Shown here one piece after another: positions 13,445-21,530 of a DNA stretch of 33,762 bases (within the stretch, counting starts at the first letter, position 1; every line of letters starts with the position of its first letter). The translations under genes were made by a program, and so were the position numbers. This DNA is from a virus. A model generated the notes under the pieces. It saw nothing but the letters and a program-made list of their open reading frames with translations. It had not been told where the DNA came from and ran no database searches. The stretch covers positions 1 through 33,762 of IMG/VR virus record IMGVR_UViG_3300009159_000014; one strand, 5' to 3'.

Positions 13445-13683
13445 ACTTTGAAATTTTGTTTCAATGGTTGCATAGACAATCAATGTTGCAACTTTGATAC
13501 TATCTAATAGGTAGACTTCGCAATATGGGTATATTACATTCATATAAAATTCAATTTCTAGGCTATTTTTAGCCCTATTTTCAATACATATTTTAGAGTC
13601 AATCACTTGATGTGAACGACCTTTTTTTATCGTCTTATTATGACTTAAAATTAATTATGCCTATGTCAGTTATAATCTAAGAC

Positions 13684-13712
13684 AAAAAAGGCGCGATTGT
13701 TAGTCGCGCCTT
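13684..13712 (-). terminator. Rho-independent terminator of the peptidase cassette
   Basis: A perfect 9-bp stem AAGGCGCGA (13688-13696) / TCGCGCCTT (13704-13712) with a 7-base loop. On the minus strand it is followed by U6 (A tract 13684-13689). It lies 23 bp past the stop of the metallopeptidase gene. Confidence 0.9.
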
Positions 13713-13734
13713 ACACTATAAACGACACACACAA

Positions 13735-14712
13735 TTACATAGTTGACATCCACTTACTACATGACTCACACACTTCGCAGTTGAAATCTCTGGCATATTT
13801 AAGTGTCTTCGATTCGACTAGCTCGTCACATGATTCACACTTCATCCATTGCTCTTCGACTTTTGTTGCACTGGTGTAACAATCACTCCATCCATCCCAG
13901 TCATAATAACTTGAATATTTTGACATGTAAGAAACTGGATTCGGTTTTCTGGGTGTGAAAGTACATTCGTACACACTTGTCATGGATAACATAATCTCGC
14001 GACACATACAAAGACAATTTTCAACATCGTCAAAGACAACGACTTCATCGTCGCAGTGTGGATTATAATATCCACATGACATGTTAGCGACTGACACGCC
14101 CACTCCAGATTGATTCAAGGCGTACACATCAGTCAACATCCCAGATGCAAAATGATAACCATATAATCCGATTATCTTTGACACTTCTTTCTTAAATCTC
14201 TTCGACTGCAGTTGTGCGCCATATATTTCATTGACGAAATCGTCATTGCCTTTTCGGTCGCACTGGAGTATAAATCTAACATCCTCAAAAAATGACATGT
14301 TAGCGTCATAACTACCATCGCATCCGACTTCCTCGTCTCTAAAAAAAGCTACTTTGATATTATCCATATCGCGCAATAATTCAAGACATATAAATATCCC
14401 GACCTTATCGTCACCACCACACCCAGAAGGAGTCTTCATGTGCTTATTATATCCCATTGCACTGGATTCATCGCAAAGGATGGTGAAATCTTCATCTGGT
14501 ATTATCTTATGTACGGTATCAGTGTGCGACACAATACATGGATAACTGGTGGCATTACCTTTCGTCACATAGATGTTATCTTTTTCAATCACTGGTACCA
14601 GTCCCATCGCGATCGTTTGATTGACTATAAATTCATTCATCCTGGTGACGTCATAAGACTCACTTTGTATTTTTAATACATTAAGCAATCGTTGCTTCAT
14701 TATATTTTGCAT
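13735..14712 (-). CDS. M20/M28-type metallopeptidase with C-terminal zinc ribbon
   Basis: A 325-aa protein. All metal ligands of the di-zinc aminopeptidase fold are present in order: H63-x-D65 (SHTDTV), the bridging Asp in GCGGDDK (101-102), E127-E128 (RDEEVGCDG), D152 (QCDRKG) and H219 (YNPHCDDE). It should hydrolyse a peptide or similar amide bond; the substrate is unknown. It is closest in look to PepT-like M20 or M42 enzymes but shorter, with no clear dimerisation domain. After residue 245 a Ser/Tyr-rich linker leads to a zinc ribbon (C292, C295, C312, C315). The start may also be Met5 (14700). It overlaps the 537-aa gene by 32 bp and is followed by a strong terminator. It has no signal peptide. 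Confidence 0.85.
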   Translation of the reverse strand: MQNIMKQRLLNVLKIQSESYDVTRMNEFIVNQTIAMGLVPVIEKDNIYVTKGNATSYPCIVSHTDTVHKIIPDEDFTILCDESSAMGYNKHMKTPSGCGGDDKVGIFICLELLRDMDNIKVAFFRDEEVGCDGSYDANMSFFEDVRFILQCDRKGNDDFVNEIYGAQLQSKRFKKEVSKIIGLYGYHFASGMLTDVYALNQSGVGVSVANMSCGYYNPHCDDEVVVFDDVENCLCMCREIMLSMTSVYECTFTPRKPNPVSYMSKYSSYYDWDGWSDCYTSATKVEEQWMKCESCDELVESKTLKYARDFNCEVCESCSKWMSTM

Positions 14713-16294
14713 AGTTTTTTTCGTTTACGTTTTTTAATAAATTAGTGTACTCGTCAACATTAACATTGGCTACATAACCAGAATCGAGCGCGGTAACATC
14801 GCATGTTAAATAAAATTTGCCATCCACCATGCAACGCTCTGCATCATTTTCATGGGCCCATTCGCCATCATGTAATTCAACTGCATCGTCATAACGAATA
14901 TAATCTCCATTTATGTCGAATACACAATCCTCACATAAACAATAGTCGTCGATTGATTCAACATAAACAATTTCGCTGCTATTTTTTAAATAGTTAACAC
15001 CATTTACAATAACACAATCAATCTCTAATACCATCTCGTCTTCGTTATTGACGCATAAGTCTTCATTATTGACTAATCCTTCAATGTAAGTCCCATTAGG
15101 GCGACGATATTCAATATAACGCGCATCGTCTTCATCTATGTCGCAGCCATTGAATACATCGTAAACATTATTATTATGCTCGTCATAACTGCCATCAGTA
15201 TTTTTCAATATTTTATACTCACTTTCATTTTTGTTATTACTTAACACATCACCAGATAGAATCGACAAAGTGTCCATGTATGGATAATAATCAAATTTAT
15301 AACGACTCAATGTCACCTTTGGCGACGATATATAACCACCAGATAGATGTTTGTCAAAGTCTTCATGGTGACAAGATTGTCGACTTTTATAATAGTAGTC
15401 ATTATCATTCGCCCATTGAATAAACGAACCAGTAAGTGATTCATGAGTGTATATGGTGTCCATTGCCTTTTTTCCACCATCTAATAACCAGAGGATGGCG
15501 CGACCTAATACCTTGCCATTAATGTCATAAGCTACTAGTATTGACACTTTATCTTCGTTCATGGTGTAAATTGATAACCATTCGCAACACTCTTCATGTC
15601 GCATACATGACCCGAATAAATTAGTGTCTCTTCCTAATATGTCCGAATAATTGTCAACGAAATAGGCATCTGCAATCGCATCACCTTCAATCACCTTAAA
15701 ATTAATTTTCTTGCCTTCGCCTTCTTCGTCACCTAATACCGAAATATATGACTTAATAAGATTGCTAAATTTTTCATAATCAGTCGCGCTGATTTCATTG
15801 GCAACATGTTCATGTAGTAAATTTCTTGCCATCTTAACTGCCTTCATGTCTTGTCTTCCAGTGCGCGCCCATTTTCCATTCTCATTGACAACATGTTCGC
15901 GACCATAAGGCAAGTAGCTACACATCTCGCCACGCATAGTAATATAGTTAGCGAACTGGGTGTGTGTGTCTTCACTCCTTAACAGTCTTTGTGCGACGAT
16001 TGACTCATTGCGCATTGATTTCAACATGTCACGCATACTAGATGAATAATTCAAAGGTGCCTTAAAAATATTCTCAGTATTATCACATGCGTCATGGATA
16101 ATTCTCCAGTAGTCTTCGCCTTGTGGCGTGTCACACCATGCCATCGATGTGTCGATTGCTCTGGATAAGCTAGTAACTTCAAAAGTAAAAATGTCTTTCC
16201 TTTTTTCAATGTAAGATACGTTCATTGCATTTTCGAACGCTTGTGACTTCATTGGCTCTGGTAACATCCCGAACCATTCAATAATTGTTTTCAT
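14681..16294 (-). CDS. Large phage protein of unknown function with GSCMRH motif
   Basis: A 537-aa protein. Near the N-terminus (43-69) is a DTPQGEDYW element seen in phage proteins. The central block has GSCMRHEECCEWL (228-240), SILVAY, VLGRAILWLLDGG (262-274), MDTIYT and a FIQWANDNDYYYK helix. I know this combination as a widespread uncharacterised phage family. The C-terminal third (about 430-510) is acidic and contains repeated short cysteine and DGEWAHENDAERC-type elements, probably metal-binding. It has many Asp codons. No enzymatic function can be named. It is co-transcribed with the metallopeptidase (32-bp overlap) and preceded by two tiny membrane-protein genes. Confidence 0.7.
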   Translation of the reverse strand: MKTIIEWFGMLPEPMKSQAFENAMNVSYIEKRKDIFTFEVTSLSRAIDTSMAWCDTPQGEDYWRIIHDACDNTENIFKAPLNYSSSMRDMLKSMRNESIVAQRLLRSEDTHTQFANYITMRGEMCSYLPYGREHVVNENGKWARTGRQDMKAVKMARNLLHEHVANEISATDYEKFSNLIKSYISVLGDEEGEGKKINFKVIEGDAIADAYFVDNYSDILGRDTNLFGSCMRHEECCEWLSIYTMNEDKVSILVAYDINGKVLGRAILWLLDGGKKAMDTIYTHESLTGSFIQWANDNDYYYKSRQSCHHEDFDKHLSGGYISSPKVTLSRYKFDYYPYMDTLSILSGDVLSNNKNESEYKILKNTDGSYDEHNNNVYDVFNGCDIDEDDARYIEYRRPNGTYIEGLVNNEDLCVNNEDEMVLEIDCVIVNGVNYLKNSSEIVYVESIDDYCLCEDCVFDINGDYIRYDDAVELHDGEWAHENDAERCMVDGKFYLTCDVTALDSGYVANVNVDEYTNLLKNVNEKNYAKYNEATIA

Positions 16295-16318
16295 GTGTTG
16301 TGTGTTTTGTGTTATGAA

Positions 16319-16414
16319 TTAAAAATTATCAGCGACCATCATTAGTAAAAGGCAAAGGATTATAACTACAATCGATTGCTTGAATGTTAAATCTTTACTT
16401 TGTTGCATTTTCAT
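16319..16414 (-). CDS. 31-aa membrane microprotein
   Basis: An ORF of 31 codons ending 24 bp before the 537-aa gene. The polar basic N-terminus (MKMQQSKDLTFKQS) is followed by one hydrophobic span (IVVIILCLLLMMVADNF). It overlaps the upstream microprotein gene by 20 bp. Real expression is inferred from packing and from the clean membrane-protein composition. Confidence 0.5.
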   Translation of the reverse strand: MKMQQSKDLTFKQSIVVIILCLLLMMVADNF

Positions 16415-16511
16415 TTTCGATTAAAAGGTGAATTAATAATTTGCCAACATAAGAAACAAAGAAGGCAAATAAGACTAATTGAACTGCGAGAAACATATCT
16501 AAATTTTCCAT
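16395..16511 (-). CDS. 38-aa membrane microprotein
   Basis: An ORF of 38 codons, first of the cassette. It has a short acidic N-terminus (MENLD), one hydrophobic span (MFLAVQLVLFAFFVSYVGKLLIHLLI) and a polar end (ENENATK). It starts just after a small hairpin and palindrome in its probable leader. No family recognised. Confidence 0.5.
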   Translation of the reverse strand: MENLDMFLAVQLVLFAFFVSYVGKLLIHLLIENENATK

Positions 16512-16519
16512 AATGTGTG

Positions 16520-16554
16520 TGCCAATGGTTTTATTTGGCATCGTAATATTACGA
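16520..16554. promoter_or_regulatory. Hairpin and 14-bp perfect palindrome upstream of the peptidase cassette
   Basis: TGCCAA (16520-16525) pairs with TTGGCA (16535-16540), and TCGTAATATTACGA (16541-16554) is a perfect palindrome. Both lie within 45 bp upstream of the first cassette gene. The palindrome is the right size for a dimeric repressor operator; the binding protein is unknown. Confidence 0.5.
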
Positions 16555-16637
16555 AATAAACAAACACAAAAGTGAAATAATATTAAATAGTAGTAAAATA
16601 TTGCAAAATTGTTACCTGGTTATTGGTACGAATTTAG

Positions 16638-16789
16638 ACTGGGAGTAAAGGTTTTATACCATCCTTTACATGTGTGGATATATTCTACATTGTATTATAT
16701 ATTATATAATGTATATTATAATATACAATGTATATTGTATTATAGAATAAATAATACATACTATATTATATTAGGACCGCTTTACCAGT
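16638..16789. repeat. Large imperfect inverted repeat with A/T palindromic core
   Basis: The outer arms ACTGGGAGTAAAGG (16638-16651) and CGCTTTACCAGT (ending 16789) are imperfect inverted copies. Inside lie GTAAAGG/CCTTTAC (16645-16651 and 16663-16669), two direct ATTGTATTATA copies, and a perfect 18-bp palindrome TGTATATTATAATATACA (16710-16727). The region could extrude a cruciform or melt easily. Confidence 0.65.
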
Positions 16790-17008
16790 TGCATAAGATT
16801 TAAGCTAGTAACTATTTAGCCCATCGATTGTTATGTTTTGTGATTGAGTCAGTAAGATATCATATATTAAAATACTTACTTTAATACCCTACGAAAGCCC
16901 TCCTATTTAACATAATGGTAATTATAAGACAAAAGTATTACTGAATATCAGTTAGTTATATATTAAAAAATAGTACTATGCACCCCCTACCATCTTTTTT
17001 AGCGTAAT

Positions 17009-17027
17009 CAATGGTGTAACGCCATTG
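17009..17027. promoter_or_regulatory. Operator-like dyad CAATGG...CCATTG
   Basis: CAATGGTGTAACGCCATTG has 6-bp perfect arms, extended by one T-G and one G-C pair. It lies about 65-80 bp upstream of the late promoter candidate. Confidence 0.45.
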
Positions 17028-17091
17028 TGCCTCTCATATTTTTGATATAAAACATTGTTTTGCGATATTTTAATATTTGGTATTATTGTTG

Positions 17092-17099
17092 TAGCTTTG
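17092..17099 (+). promoter_or_regulatory. Late promoter candidate, -7 element TAGCTTTG
   Basis: Perfect TAnnTTTG with T-rich sequence about 20 bases upstream where a -33 box is expected (TTTT rather than TTTG). It is 65 bp before the zinc-ribbon gene that opens the rightward region. GTTGTAGCTT(T/C)G is repeated before the large terminase gene at 18158. Confidence 0.55.
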
Positions 17100-17108
17100 A
17101 CTTAATAT

Positions 17109-17133
17109 AGTCGTTGGGTGATTAAGAACGACT
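17109..17133 (+). promoter_or_regulatory. Leader hairpin AGTCGTT/AACGACT
   Basis: Perfect 7-bp arms (17109-17115 and 17127-17133) with an 11-base loop followed by TTTCTCT, beginning about 10 bases past the -7 box. It would sit at the very 5' end of the late transcript as a stabiliser or weak attenuator. Confidence 0.45.
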
Positions 17134-17163
17134 TTTCTCTAAAATAAGCACAATTTTTAAACT

Positions 17164-17358
17164 ATGAAAGATACAGTTAGTAAGAGGATTTACAAATGCA
17201 AGTGTGGTACTACTTTGCAGGAGTATGTTTGGTCGAGTTCCATAAGGGAACATACCATCGAGTGTGCAAAGTGTGGGATGATTCTTGGGTTTAATAACAT
17301 AAAGATAGACAAGGTAGTGAGTATTGTCTCTATCAGAACGCCAACCAAAAACCGATAA
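17164..17358 (+). CDS. Zinc-ribbon protein
   Basis: A 64-aa protein with C12-x-C14 and C34-xx-C37 framing a small ribbon (YKCKCG ... ECAKCG), plus H30, and a basic C-terminus ending TPTKNR. The first knuckle is CxC rather than the common CxxC. It is the first gene of the rightward region and ends 1 bp before the small terminase start. It may bind DNA or RNA and could be a late regulator or terminase accessory; neither is shown. Confidence 0.7.
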   Translation: MKDTVSKRIYKCKCGTTLQEYVWSSSIREHTIECAKCGMILGFNNIKIDKVVSIVSIRTPTKNR

Positions 17359-17359
17359 T

Positions 17360-17971
17360 ATGAACGCAGAGTTTAAGGATATAACGAAAGAAGCATTTAT
17401 CATTGCTTACAGAGAAAATTTTGGAAATATTACTATTAGTTGCCAGGCGTGTGGAATTAGTAGGACTATGTATCAAGGATGGATGAAGAACGATGTGGAG
17501 TTTAGAAAGACGTTGGCTGAAATAGAACCAGAGGAGATTATGTTGGATTGGGGGGAGCATAAGTTGATGGAGAGGATTAGTAAGGGTGATACTTTGGCTA
17601 CGATGTTTCTGTTAAAGACAAAGGGCAAAAGAAGAGGGTATATTGAAAAGACGGAGGTTGCTCATGAAGGGGATGTGGTTAAGCAGATTACTGTTAACGT
17701 ATTAAAGCCTGGTGCTACCTTGGCGGATATTCCTAAATTGGATGGTGATGAGAATAAAACTTTACCAGAAAGTTCGCCAATAGAGAACTTTGAGTCTGAA
17801 AATGGCAAGATTATTAACTTTGATACCCAAACTGACGATACTTATTTTGTTCCAGCTACTGCTGCTTCGGTTCCTAGTTTTGATACCGAAGAATTAATGG
17901 AGGTTCCGCTATATAATCACGACAAAGGTGAGATATTGGATTTGAACGAAGATGACGAATACGAAGAATAG
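17360..17971 (+). CDS. terS: Terminase small subunit
   Basis: The ATG at 17360 (MNAEFKDITK) is chosen because it follows the previous stop directly; an in-frame alternative start upstream would overlap the zinc-ribbon gene. The 203-aa protein has the DNA-binding N-terminus of small terminases: FIIAYRENFGNITISCQACGISRTMYQGWMKND, with the helix-turn-helix at about residues 24-44. A central ATMFLLKTKGKRRGY segment follows (common LKxKxxRGY motif). The C-terminal 80 residues are acidic and low-complexity (EDDEYEE end). It recognises the packaging start site and feeds DNA to the large subunit. Confidence 0.85.
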   Translation: MNAEFKDITKEAFIIAYRENFGNITISCQACGISRTMYQGWMKNDVEFRKTLAEIEPEEIMLDWGEHKLMERISKGDTLATMFLLKTKGKRRGYIEKTEVAHEGDVVKQITVNVLKPGATLADIPKLDGDENKTLPESSPIENFESENGKIINFDTQTDDTYFVPATAASVPSFDTEELMEVPLYNHDKGEILDLNEDDEYEE

Positions 17972-18208
17972 TGTTTAAAGGCCATTTTAAGGAGATTCTA
18001 GCCATTATCTACACTATAGTAGTATATTGACCTTAAAAAATACTTTATCAGTCAAAATGAGCCACATTTGACTTATAATCGGCTCAAACATGATTGATAT
18101 GTGTCAAATAAAAGGATTATTGACTTATATACCCATACCTCTGTATAAAACCAAAAAGTTGTAGCTTCGTTTCACCAAACCATATTTTTTAATTTTTCCC
18201 AATGACTT
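17972..18208. other. Structured gap between small and large terminase genes
   Basis: 237 bp without a gene in an otherwise packed region. It contains inverted repeats TTTTAAGG (17985-17992) / CCTTAAAA (18031-18038) and TGAGCC (18058-18063) / GGCTCA (18081-18086), an 8-bp palindrome ACTATAGT (18012-18019), and repeated TTTGAC/GTCAAA words. It may hold the packaging recognition site and/or a regulatory RNA, plus the promoter candidate at 18162. Confidence 0.55.
18162..18169 (+). promoter_or_regulatory. Promoter candidate before the large terminase gene
   Basis: TAGCTTCG, one mismatch from TAnnTTTG, within GTTGTAGCTTCG that repeats the sequence at the first late promoter. It is 39 bp before the ATG. 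Confidence 0.4.
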
Positions 18209-19383: not shown

Positions 19384-21129
19384 GTGAAATTAAATGAAAT
19401 ATTAGCAGCGATTAATCCTTTTCAACAAAAGGCAAAAGCTCCAAACGGAATGATAAATGTTACAAATCCATTTTCTGATTTTGGAGGATTACTTGCTGGA
19501 AGAACCTTATATCCAGAACTTAACCAAAGAAAATTTGTACTTGACTACGAAAACAATAGTGAGGTATATGCAATCATAAAGCGTATATCTAAAACTGTAT
19601 CTACTGTACCATTTTATGTTTACAAGGTAAAAGACAAGAAATCACTTACTCGCTACACAGCACTCACTAAAAACTCTACAACTACTCAAGACTTGGCTAA
19701 AGCTGAGTTAATGAGAGTAAAAGCCATAAGTGAGATTGCAGATTCCCCATTAAACAATTTATTAGAAAAACCAAACGAATATCAATCTCTTTCTGAGTTT
19801 ATTGAAAGCGTTATTGGTTATAAACTTATTTGCGGCAATTCTTTTGTATGGGCCAACCGATTAGAAAACGGTAAGGTTCAAGAATTAGTCGTGCTCCCTC
19901 CACAATACATGGCCATCATTTCTGATGGAACTATCAATGGGGTTGAAGGTTATTCTTTTACGCTTGTTGGATGGGATTTCTTAGATGCGAAAGACGTAAT
20001 CCATCTAAAATACTTCAACCCTTACTTTGACACTAACGGTAATCAACTATATGGACTTAGTCCTTTACAAGCTGCTTACAGAACTGTTCAGCGTAGCAAC
20101 GATGCCAAAGATACATCTGTTGGTATGTTACAAAATCAAGGACCTAAAGGTATCTTGTATGCTGACGAAGGTAATAACTTCGGACAAGAAGAAGCTGGTA
20201 AGTTAAAAGAAGATTTCTACAATCAGTACGGAACTAAGACTCAAGGTCAAATTGTTCAGAACGCTGGTAAGATTTTAATTGCTGGTGCTAAGTTGGGATG
20301 GGTTAACATGGGATTATCTCCTATTGACCTTCAGCTTTTAGAATCTGAGAAAGTTACTCTTAGAGAACTTTGTAACGTGTACGGAGTAAACTCTGCTTTG
20401 TTTAACGACCCAGATAACAAGACTTATAACAACATGAAGGAAGCTAAAAAGGAAATGCTTACGCAAGTAGTACTTCCAGAGTTAGTAGCACTTCGTGATG
20501 CTTTCAATAGATTCTTTGCAGTTGAAATTGGTAATGGCTACTATATCGATTTTGATATTACAGTATTCCCAGAGTTACAAGAAGATATGAAAGAGCTTTC
20601 TGCTATCTTATCTCAATCTTGGTGGATTAGTCCTAATGAAAAAAGAGCAGCTATGCGTTATGATACTTCTTCTGACCCAGTGATGGATGAGATATTTATA
20701 CCAGCAGGTTATCTACCTATTGATGAGTTGACAATGTTGCAAGACCCTAGAAATGCTCAACAACAAGGAGATTACAATGTACCGCCAGTGAAGAACGAAG
20801 GTTTTTTTTTGAGTAAGAGTGAAAGATTAGATGAGGTTTATTCTAAGTATAAGGCTATAACCAATATGGGCTATGCAGAATTAGAAGCCTGGTCTAAAAC
20901 AGAATGTTCAAAGAAAGCATCTTTAGACAGAGCACCGATAGAAAGAAATTTAAGATTGCTGTCTAAGAGCAAAGAAGATTGGACAAGTAATGATATTGAA
21001 GATGCTAACAGAACAATTAGCTTTGTCAGTAGAATGAAAGGAGCAGAACAAGGAGAACCAGCATCAAAAGGATGCCCTTCTAAAAGAGATATATCACTTA
21101 AAAACTGGGCTTACGACCCATCAAAATAA
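19384..21129 (+). CDS. Portal protein with extra C-terminal domain
   Basis: A 581-aa protein starting at GTG. Residues 1 to about 470 are an HK97/SPP1-type portal core: N-terminal VYAIIKRISKTVSTVPFYVY, LLEKPNEYQSLSEFIE, GNSFVWANRL, DVIHLKYFNP, LSPLQAAYRTVQ, then LLESEKVTLRELCNVYGVNSALFND, ending near PAGYLPIDEL. The extra about 108 residues after a polar linker (TECSKKASLDRAP, DWTSNDIEDANRTISFVSRM, KRDISLKNWAYDPSK) form a separate domain seen in Bacteroidota phage head regions. It makes the dodecameric DNA gate of the capsid vertex. A T9 run lies exactly at the junction. Confidence 0.92.
   Translation: MKLNEILAAINPFQQKAKAPNGMINVTNPFSDFGGLLAGRTLYPELNQRKFVLDYENNSEVYAIIKRISKTVSTVPFYVYKVKDKKSLTRYTALTKNSTTTQDLAKAELMRVKAISEIADSPLNNLLEKPNEYQSLSEFIESVIGYKLICGNSFVWANRLENGKVQELVVLPPQYMAIISDGTINGVEGYSFTLVGWDFLDAKDVIHLKYFNPYFDTNGNQLYGLSPLQAAYRTVQRSNDAKDTSVGMLQNQGPKGILYADEGNNFGQEEAGKLKEDFYNQYGTKTQGQIVQNAGKILIAGAKLGWVNMGLSPIDLQLLESEKVTLRELCNVYGVNSALFNDPDNKTYNNMKEAKKEMLTQVVLPELVALRDAFNRFFAVEIGNGYYIDFDITVFPELQEDMKELSAILSQSWWISPNEKRAAMRYDTSSDPVMDEIFIPAGYLPIDELTMLQDPRNAQQQGDYNVPPVKNEGFFLSKSERLDEVYSKYKAITNMGYAELEAWSKTECSKKASLDRAPIERNLRLLSKSKEDWTSNDIEDANRTISFVSRMKGAEQGEPASKGCPSKRDISLKNWAYDPSK
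20802..20810 (+). other. T9 slippery run at the portal domain junction
   Basis: The run is read GGT TTT TTT TTG AGT (residues 473-477). Loss of one T gives TTT TGA, an immediate stop; gain of one T gives TTT GAG TAA, a stop two codons on. Either slip yields a portal of about 475 aa lacking the C-terminal domain. Confidence 0.55.
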
Positions 21130-21134
21130 ATATT

Positions 21135-21530
21135 ATGAAATCATTTGAAAAATTAGAAAAGGCTTTAGAATTATTGTTTGAAGAAAAGGCAATCAATAAG
21201 ACTAACCCAAAAGGAATTTCACACGCTAATAGCTTAATTGCTAGTGGTGATGTCACTAAGCCATCATCTTGGGAAAGACCTTCTGTAGAAATGGAAAATG
21301 CTTATATCGATGAGAATGGATGGGATGAGTTTGCTAAATGGTTTTTGGGAGTTGATACTTCTATGGACAAAGAAACTAAAGGACATTATGGTTATATCTA
21401 TACTTCTGATTTTAAAACAGTTGATAGGGAAGGTTTACGAGCAATTAGACAAAGGTCAGCACAAAATGGATTGACTTCTGTTTTTGCAGCAGCAGGTAAA
21501 ATGATAGAAGCTATAGATGCCAAAAAGTAA
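21135..21530 (+). CDS. Head-region protein with FAKWFLGVD motif
   Basis: A 131-aa protein, 5 bp after the portal gene. The core ANSLIASGDVTKPSSWER ... WDEFAKWFLGVDTSMDKETKGHYGYIYTS ... LRAIRQRSAQNG is a small domain I know from phage head and protease-region proteins (WxxYAKWxLGxDxxxxxETKxxYxxP, then IRQRAAQ). Its function is not established. The N-terminal 25 residues are a charged helix. Like the extra portal domain, it may ride on the portal or the prohead. Confidence 0.7.
   Translation: MKSFEKLEKALELLFEEKAINKTNPKGISHANSLIASGDVTKPSSWERPSVEMENAYIDENGWDEFAKWFLGVDTSMDKETKGHYGYIYTSDFKTVDREGLRAIRQRSAQNGLTSVFAAAGKMIEAIDAKK

Follow-up and report, generated by a model that had tools for sequence, protein, structure and literature searches.

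The accessory operon of the virus IMGVR_UViG_3300009159_000014, which has the early operon on one side and the terminase genes on the other, raises the question of whether it is an acquired module, and what chemistry such a module might bring to the phage. The stretch of DNA analysed here (hereafter, the window) covers positions 1–33,762 of this IMG/VR record. The initial annotation described a self-contained four-gene cassette at 13684–16511, and the ORF list did confirm four ORFs on one shared strand (minus), with small corrections of the coordinates. The earlier end at 16511 truncates the first gene, the start of which is at 16541. This first gene of the variable operon, M1 (16395..16541), codes for a 48-aa microprotein with a single transmembrane (TM) segment, and is followed by M2 (16319..16414), which codes for a 31-aa single-TM microprotein, by the gene for a 537-aa protein (14681..16294), named SCM for its invariant Ser-Cys-Met motif, and by the gene for a 325-aa metallopeptidase of the M42/M28/M20 type (MH clan) with a zinc-ribbon-like CxxC...CxxC C-terminal tail (13735..14712). 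M1 and M2 share 20 nt, a gap of 24 nt separates M2 from the SCM gene, and the SCM and peptidase genes overlap by 32 nt.

The operon ends, as proposed earlier, with a perfect intrinsic terminator (13688..13712, minus strand) consisting of a 9-bp stem followed by a T-run. A perfect stem with a different sequence is found in the relatives L009, L092, and L102, and this retention of the stem despite sequence change supports the terminator as real. As for the upstream palindrome that had been reported, inverted repeats do exist there, but the long AT-rich one, located just beyond the upstream end of the variable region (16678..16771), is imperfect, and the second one (16461–16542) is weaker. The aligned sequence of the 16678–16771 repeat is retained in sibling phages. 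A search for a Bacteroidetes-type promoter ahead of the operon gave no convincing site, and a megablast comparison of the window with phage records returned no match.

The unusual base composition of the two large genes (CG dinucleotides, GAC and TCG codons) was borne out by the comparison within the window. Their codon usage (z = 8.5 and 7.0) is among the most deviant in the window, the observed/expected CpG ratios are 1.12 and 1.29 (median of the remaining genes, 0.54), TCG makes up 11–19% of the serine codons, and GAC accounts for 37% and 56% of the Asp codons. However, the adjoining terminase genes deviate in codon usage too (z = 4.0 and 8.1), and CpG ratios above 1.1 are also observed in two other genes of the window. 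Thus, composition alone is weak evidence for acquisition.

For comparison of gene content, relatives were fetched using the terminase and the DnaB-type helicase as queries. The identity between the window and the near-identical phage L254 is 96.5% as far as position 13450, 84% across 16575–18039, and 97.7% from position 18051 on, with 2.5 kb of unrelated DNA replacing positions 13451–16574; L251 is alike, and the other DNA in these two phages amounts to 2.2–2.5 kb. The region 13451..16574, which has no DNA similarity to these two phages, was therefore defined as an exchangeable slot. Since the flanks of near-identical phages that are devoid of the cassette match on both sides at 96–98%, exchange is supported. 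In total, 29 relatives align to both sides of the slot, and the slot takes interchangeable payloads, which include GP88, TreK-like proteins, a family of 300-aa proteins with no Pfam match, and others. Upstream sequence of 2.8 kb or more was available for 38 terminase loci; both large genes are present in three of them, and the SCM gene lies at a contig end in one. As judged from these alignments, the module is accessory and exchangeable, which agrees with the earlier proposal of an acquired module, and strict conservation in all relatives is contradicted by the near-identical phages that do not carry the cassette. The family of about 300 aa is a common occupant of the slot (L254:3294-4199, L251:3951-4796, L271:3800-4693, L286:2785-3678), and the two members tested gave no Pfam match.

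Bioinformatics analysis of the peptidase revealed matches to the Pfam M42 family (PF05343; E-value, 3.8e-5; 23.3 bits, cut-off 23.2) and to PHROG 4191 (E-value, 4.5e-58). Residues H63, D65, D101, E127, E128, D152, and H219 are invariant in 202 homologues, and the set of two-metal ligands and catalytic residues typical of the MH clan (H-x-D, D, E-E, D, H) is complete, so at the sequence level the active site is intact. The protein thus resembles M42/M28/M20 enzymes in its full metal ligands and catalytic acids, but differs from them in being a member of a short, divergent phage family (PHROG 4191), partnered by SCM, and with the zinc-ribbon-like tail added. Its best curated relatives are PepT-like proteins, acetylornithine deacetylase, and DapE, all far under the cut-off, and a PDB sequence search with the peptidase gave nothing useful. 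The bond that the enzyme is predicted to cleave is an amide bond or an N-terminal peptide bond. Six early ORFs are conserved in Phimunavirus, and of these the peptidase alone is annotated (PMC6115819). Bacillus and Brevibacillus phages (L004, L248) have a relative of the peptidase in an annotated region with no apparent SCM neighbour.

The SCM protein matches no model of Pfam, NCBIfam, or PADLOC, and a PDB sequence search with the SCM profile gave nothing useful. Its relatives were gathered via alignments, as the plain-protein search of IMG/VR yielded one relative only. The protein consists of an N-terminal region, a GNAT-like core (residues ~198–305), and C-terminal beta-hairpin repeats (residues ~371–509). 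Seven residues (Y211, S229-C230-M231, R265, Y282, and D341) are invariant in 96 diverse members, and they may group in one pocket. AlphaFold gave a mean pLDDT of 92.4 for the whole protein, and a pLDDT of 90.7 with a pTM of 0.80 for the conserved core, which was modelled separately (residues 140–350; 15245..15877, minus strand). With both the whole protein and the core as Foldseek queries, the best 50 PDB matches listed were all GNAT-type transferases, with FemX, an aminoacyl-tRNA-dependent transferase, among the best matches of the core. The figures are weak: the best E-values are 4.2e-3 (core) and 6.0e-3 (whole protein) within a range of 4e-3 to 1e-1, and, as no match falls under an E-value of 0.001 and the TM-scores are below 0.45, GNAT membership is not established.

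The core follows the GNAT order of elements (strand-helix-helix-strand-strand-strand-helix), but differs in that the acetyl-CoA loop of motif A, the pyrophosphate loop (R/Q)xxGx(G/A) that links strand 4 to helix 3, is present in 0 of the 96 members, and in that the invariant Ser-Cys-Met stands directly before the second helix. The Amidoligase_2 core (PF12224) was found neither in the SCM protein nor in its 96 relatives. A GNAT-type phage protein involved in host takeover has been described, namely the Rac acetyltransferase of phiKMV-like phages, the action of which leads to host-protein cleavage (PMC7552054). Compared by description, Rac retains an acetyl-CoA pocket, is thought to use host proteases, and has no phage peptidase partner; since this pocket is missing from the SCM family, Rac was rejected as a homologue.

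The two large genes do co-occur elsewhere, and very frequently in the loci sampled: an adjacent same-strand SCM gene accompanies the peptidase gene in 64 of the 78 viral and 71 of the 80 genomic peptidase-anchored loci, and the neighbours mostly overlap or lie within 50 nt of each other. In the opposite direction, 39 of the 81 SCM-anchored loci have an adjacent peptidase gene, and many of those with none sit on long contigs. The distance matrices of the two proteins are correlated (r = 0.29; permutation maximum, 0.06; 89 non-redundant pairs), although shared phage ancestry may account for part of this correlation. The usual order is SCM followed by peptidase, whereas in Crassvirales, e.g., phi38:1, the peptidase gene comes first. 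Besides Crassvirales, the pair is found in Drulisvirus, Phimunavirus, Maculvirus, huge phages, and CTnDOT-type transposons with TraM/TraN. The carriers of the SCM family include podoviruses of Klebsiella, Pectobacterium, and Vibrio as well as Bacteroides conjugative transposons. In three genera of Autographiviridae examined, the ORF before the peptidase gene has the SCM motif and repeats, and Foldseek ties the SCM model of the window to proteins of Klebsiella KpV48, Pectobacterium Nobby, and Vibrio DE17; because the sequence match is weak, this link depends on the combination of motif, position, and fold. Cultured members of the group exist, including Klebsiella Drulisvirus and Cellulophaga phi38:1. 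One copy in Phocaeicola vulgatus has the TraM and TraN genes of a conjugative transposon nearby, and an N6 methylase adjoins the SCM-peptidase module in Phocaeicola. As far as the sequences tell, this is a widespread enzyme pair in an exchangeable slot, and one of its partners is unmodelled in the family libraries searched.

Several other observations concern the same loci. In Odoribacter laneus (L173:505-5990), the gene of the defence protein IetS (PADLOC E-value, 6e-270) lies directly upstream of the SCM-peptidase pair. Three to five SCM ORFs stand in tandem in L054, L055, and L061, and records of huge phages contain 7–14 SCM places each. A toxicity screen of one Drulisvirus identified three toxic proteins of 69, 182, and 146 aa (PMC7291057), sizes that fit neither SCM nor the peptidase, which were thus rejected as candidates for these proteins.

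A lead on the chemistry comes from another occupant of the slot. In L275 and L315, it contains genes for a class-II glutamine amidotransferase (GATase) and an amidoligase, the L275 pair being recognized by Pfam (GATase_4; E-value, 8e-8, and Amidoligase_2; E-value, 8.7e-10), and three further loci have such a pair. The profile of the peptidase tail matches five out of five of these GATases (E-values from 2e-9 to 6e-5; best shuffled decoy, 0.24). The SCM-repeat profile matches the N-terminus of one amidoligase (1.8e-5; hhalign P, 1.8e-6), and the repeats of phi38:1 SCM align to those of the L275 amidoligase with a score of 83 (shuffled maximum, 67); this likeness between acidic, low-complexity repeats is modest, being strongly significant in one out of five amidoligases. 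The L275 pair (PF12224 and PF13230) is therefore comparable to the SCM-peptidase pair in its slot, in the same-strand order with the ligase or transferase first, in the C-terminal tail shared by the hydrolases, in the related repeats of the ligase, and in the membrane microproteins upstream, but the window has a GNAT-like SCM core instead of the amidoligase core and an M42-like metallopeptidase instead of the class-II amidotransferase. Slot sharing alone does not imply like function, because single genes that are unrelated (GP88, TreK-like, and the 300-aa family) are found there as well. The amide-chemistry proposal is thus mainly based on the adaptor tails common to both pairs: adaptor parts of one kind are found on two enzyme pairs that are unrelated to each other, of which amidoligase/GATase has known amide chemistry. 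Peptide ligases linked to peptidases were reportedly treated by Iyer et al. in 2009.

The two microproteins have a different distribution. M1 has a hydropathy peak of 2.31 and homologues in close relatives, and close homologues of M2 are found in L009, L092, L089, and L094. A census of M1-like ORFs gave 62 hits, 21 with SCM, 4 with amidoligase, and 37 with other payloads. The M1 copy of the amidoligase locus in L403 aligns to M1 with a score of 160 (shuffled maximum, 39), and amidoligase payloads likewise have short TM ORFs upstream. Because M1-like ORFs lead operons with other payloads, M1 is a part of the locus rather than of the pair; on the basis of the census, the microproteins were rejected as members of the SCM-peptidase pair, and the idea of a self-contained four-gene cassette is not supported in that form. 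Judging by these distributions, the exchangeable unit is the SCM-peptidase pair with its terminator. M1-like single-TM microproteins lead the variable operon across the phage group, whatever the payload.

Taken at a probability of roughly 0.5, our main reading is that the locus encodes an exchangeable two-enzyme payload predicted to act on a target of the host or the phage by forming and cleaving amide bonds. The SCM protein would act as a transferase-like enzyme with a GNAT-like fold devoid of the acetyl-CoA loop, and it would attach an acyl or aminoacyl group to the target, perhaps via the invariant cysteine. The adjacent MH-clan peptidase would hydrolyse an amide or N-terminal peptide bond, and thereby either supply the donor or trim or remove the product. 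The SCM repeats and the zinc-ribbon tail of the peptidase may serve as adaptors, either to a target that both enzymes share or between the two proteins, and the target would most likely be a host protein or an anti-phage component. SCM catalysis is part of this conjecture, and so are the direction in which the chemistry runs, its target, and any benefit. Since phages and conjugative elements share the pair, and since it has an early-region position in Autographiviridae, a candidate role in host takeover or counter-defence, as the initial annotation suggested, is plausible. A more specific version, in which SCM represents a new amide-bond-forming (aminoacyl- or peptide-conjugating) class that is directed at proteins, uses the cysteine and a GNAT-derived fold with no acetyl-CoA, has a reversing peptidase, and is interchangeable with amidoligase/GATase, is rather doubtful and is put forward tentatively.

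It is also conceivable, although unlikely, that the peptidase is the effector and SCM a non-catalytic adaptor or activator that brings the substrate, e.g., a host or defence peptide to be degraded. The fully conserved catalytic ligands of the peptidase, the long SCM repeats, which suit binding, and the weak GNAT similarity of SCM are all compatible with such a division of labour. Yet the seven invariant core residues, several of them reactive or charged, persist across very divergent SCM members and look catalytic, and many SCM genes, often in multiple copies, have no adjacent peptidase gene. An auxiliary metabolic pair, with peptide scavenging feeding amino acids and SCM as an accessory acyltransferase acting on free amino acids or peptides, could be suggested by the best curated relatives of the peptidases, which are peptide and acyl-amino-acid hydrolases (all far under the cut-off). 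This is improbable, as the presence in conjugative transposons, the swapping with unrelated payloads in the same slot, and the adaptor tails common with the amidoligase pair fit a role in conflict or modification better.

The module could also have other mobile elements or DNA as its target, through superinfection exclusion, a toxin-antitoxin-like system, or a Mom-like GNAT acyl modification of phage DNA. Carriage by phages and conjugative elements, the adjoining N6 methylase in Phocaeicola, and the position directly downstream of IetS in Odoribacter point in that direction. However, no PADLOC model matches SCM or the peptidase of the window, L188, or L173, NCBIfam gives none for SCM, Pfam found no DNA-binding domain, and the partner of SCM is a peptidase, not a nuclease, which together make this explanation improbable as well. 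The SCM family, which has no counterpart in Pfam, NCBIfam, or PADLOC, or in sequence searches of the PDB, has a putative active site that is invariant and an enzyme partner that is nearly constant. Its replacement by an amidoligase/GATase pair that has these tails too makes amide-bond chemistry a testable prediction for what had been a "hypothetical protein".

The slot is not the only variable site in this phage group. A second indel site is located at positions 20793–21524 of the window (~0.7 kb, after the portal gene region); this segment is missing in L251, L252, L253, and L255, and is present in L254.
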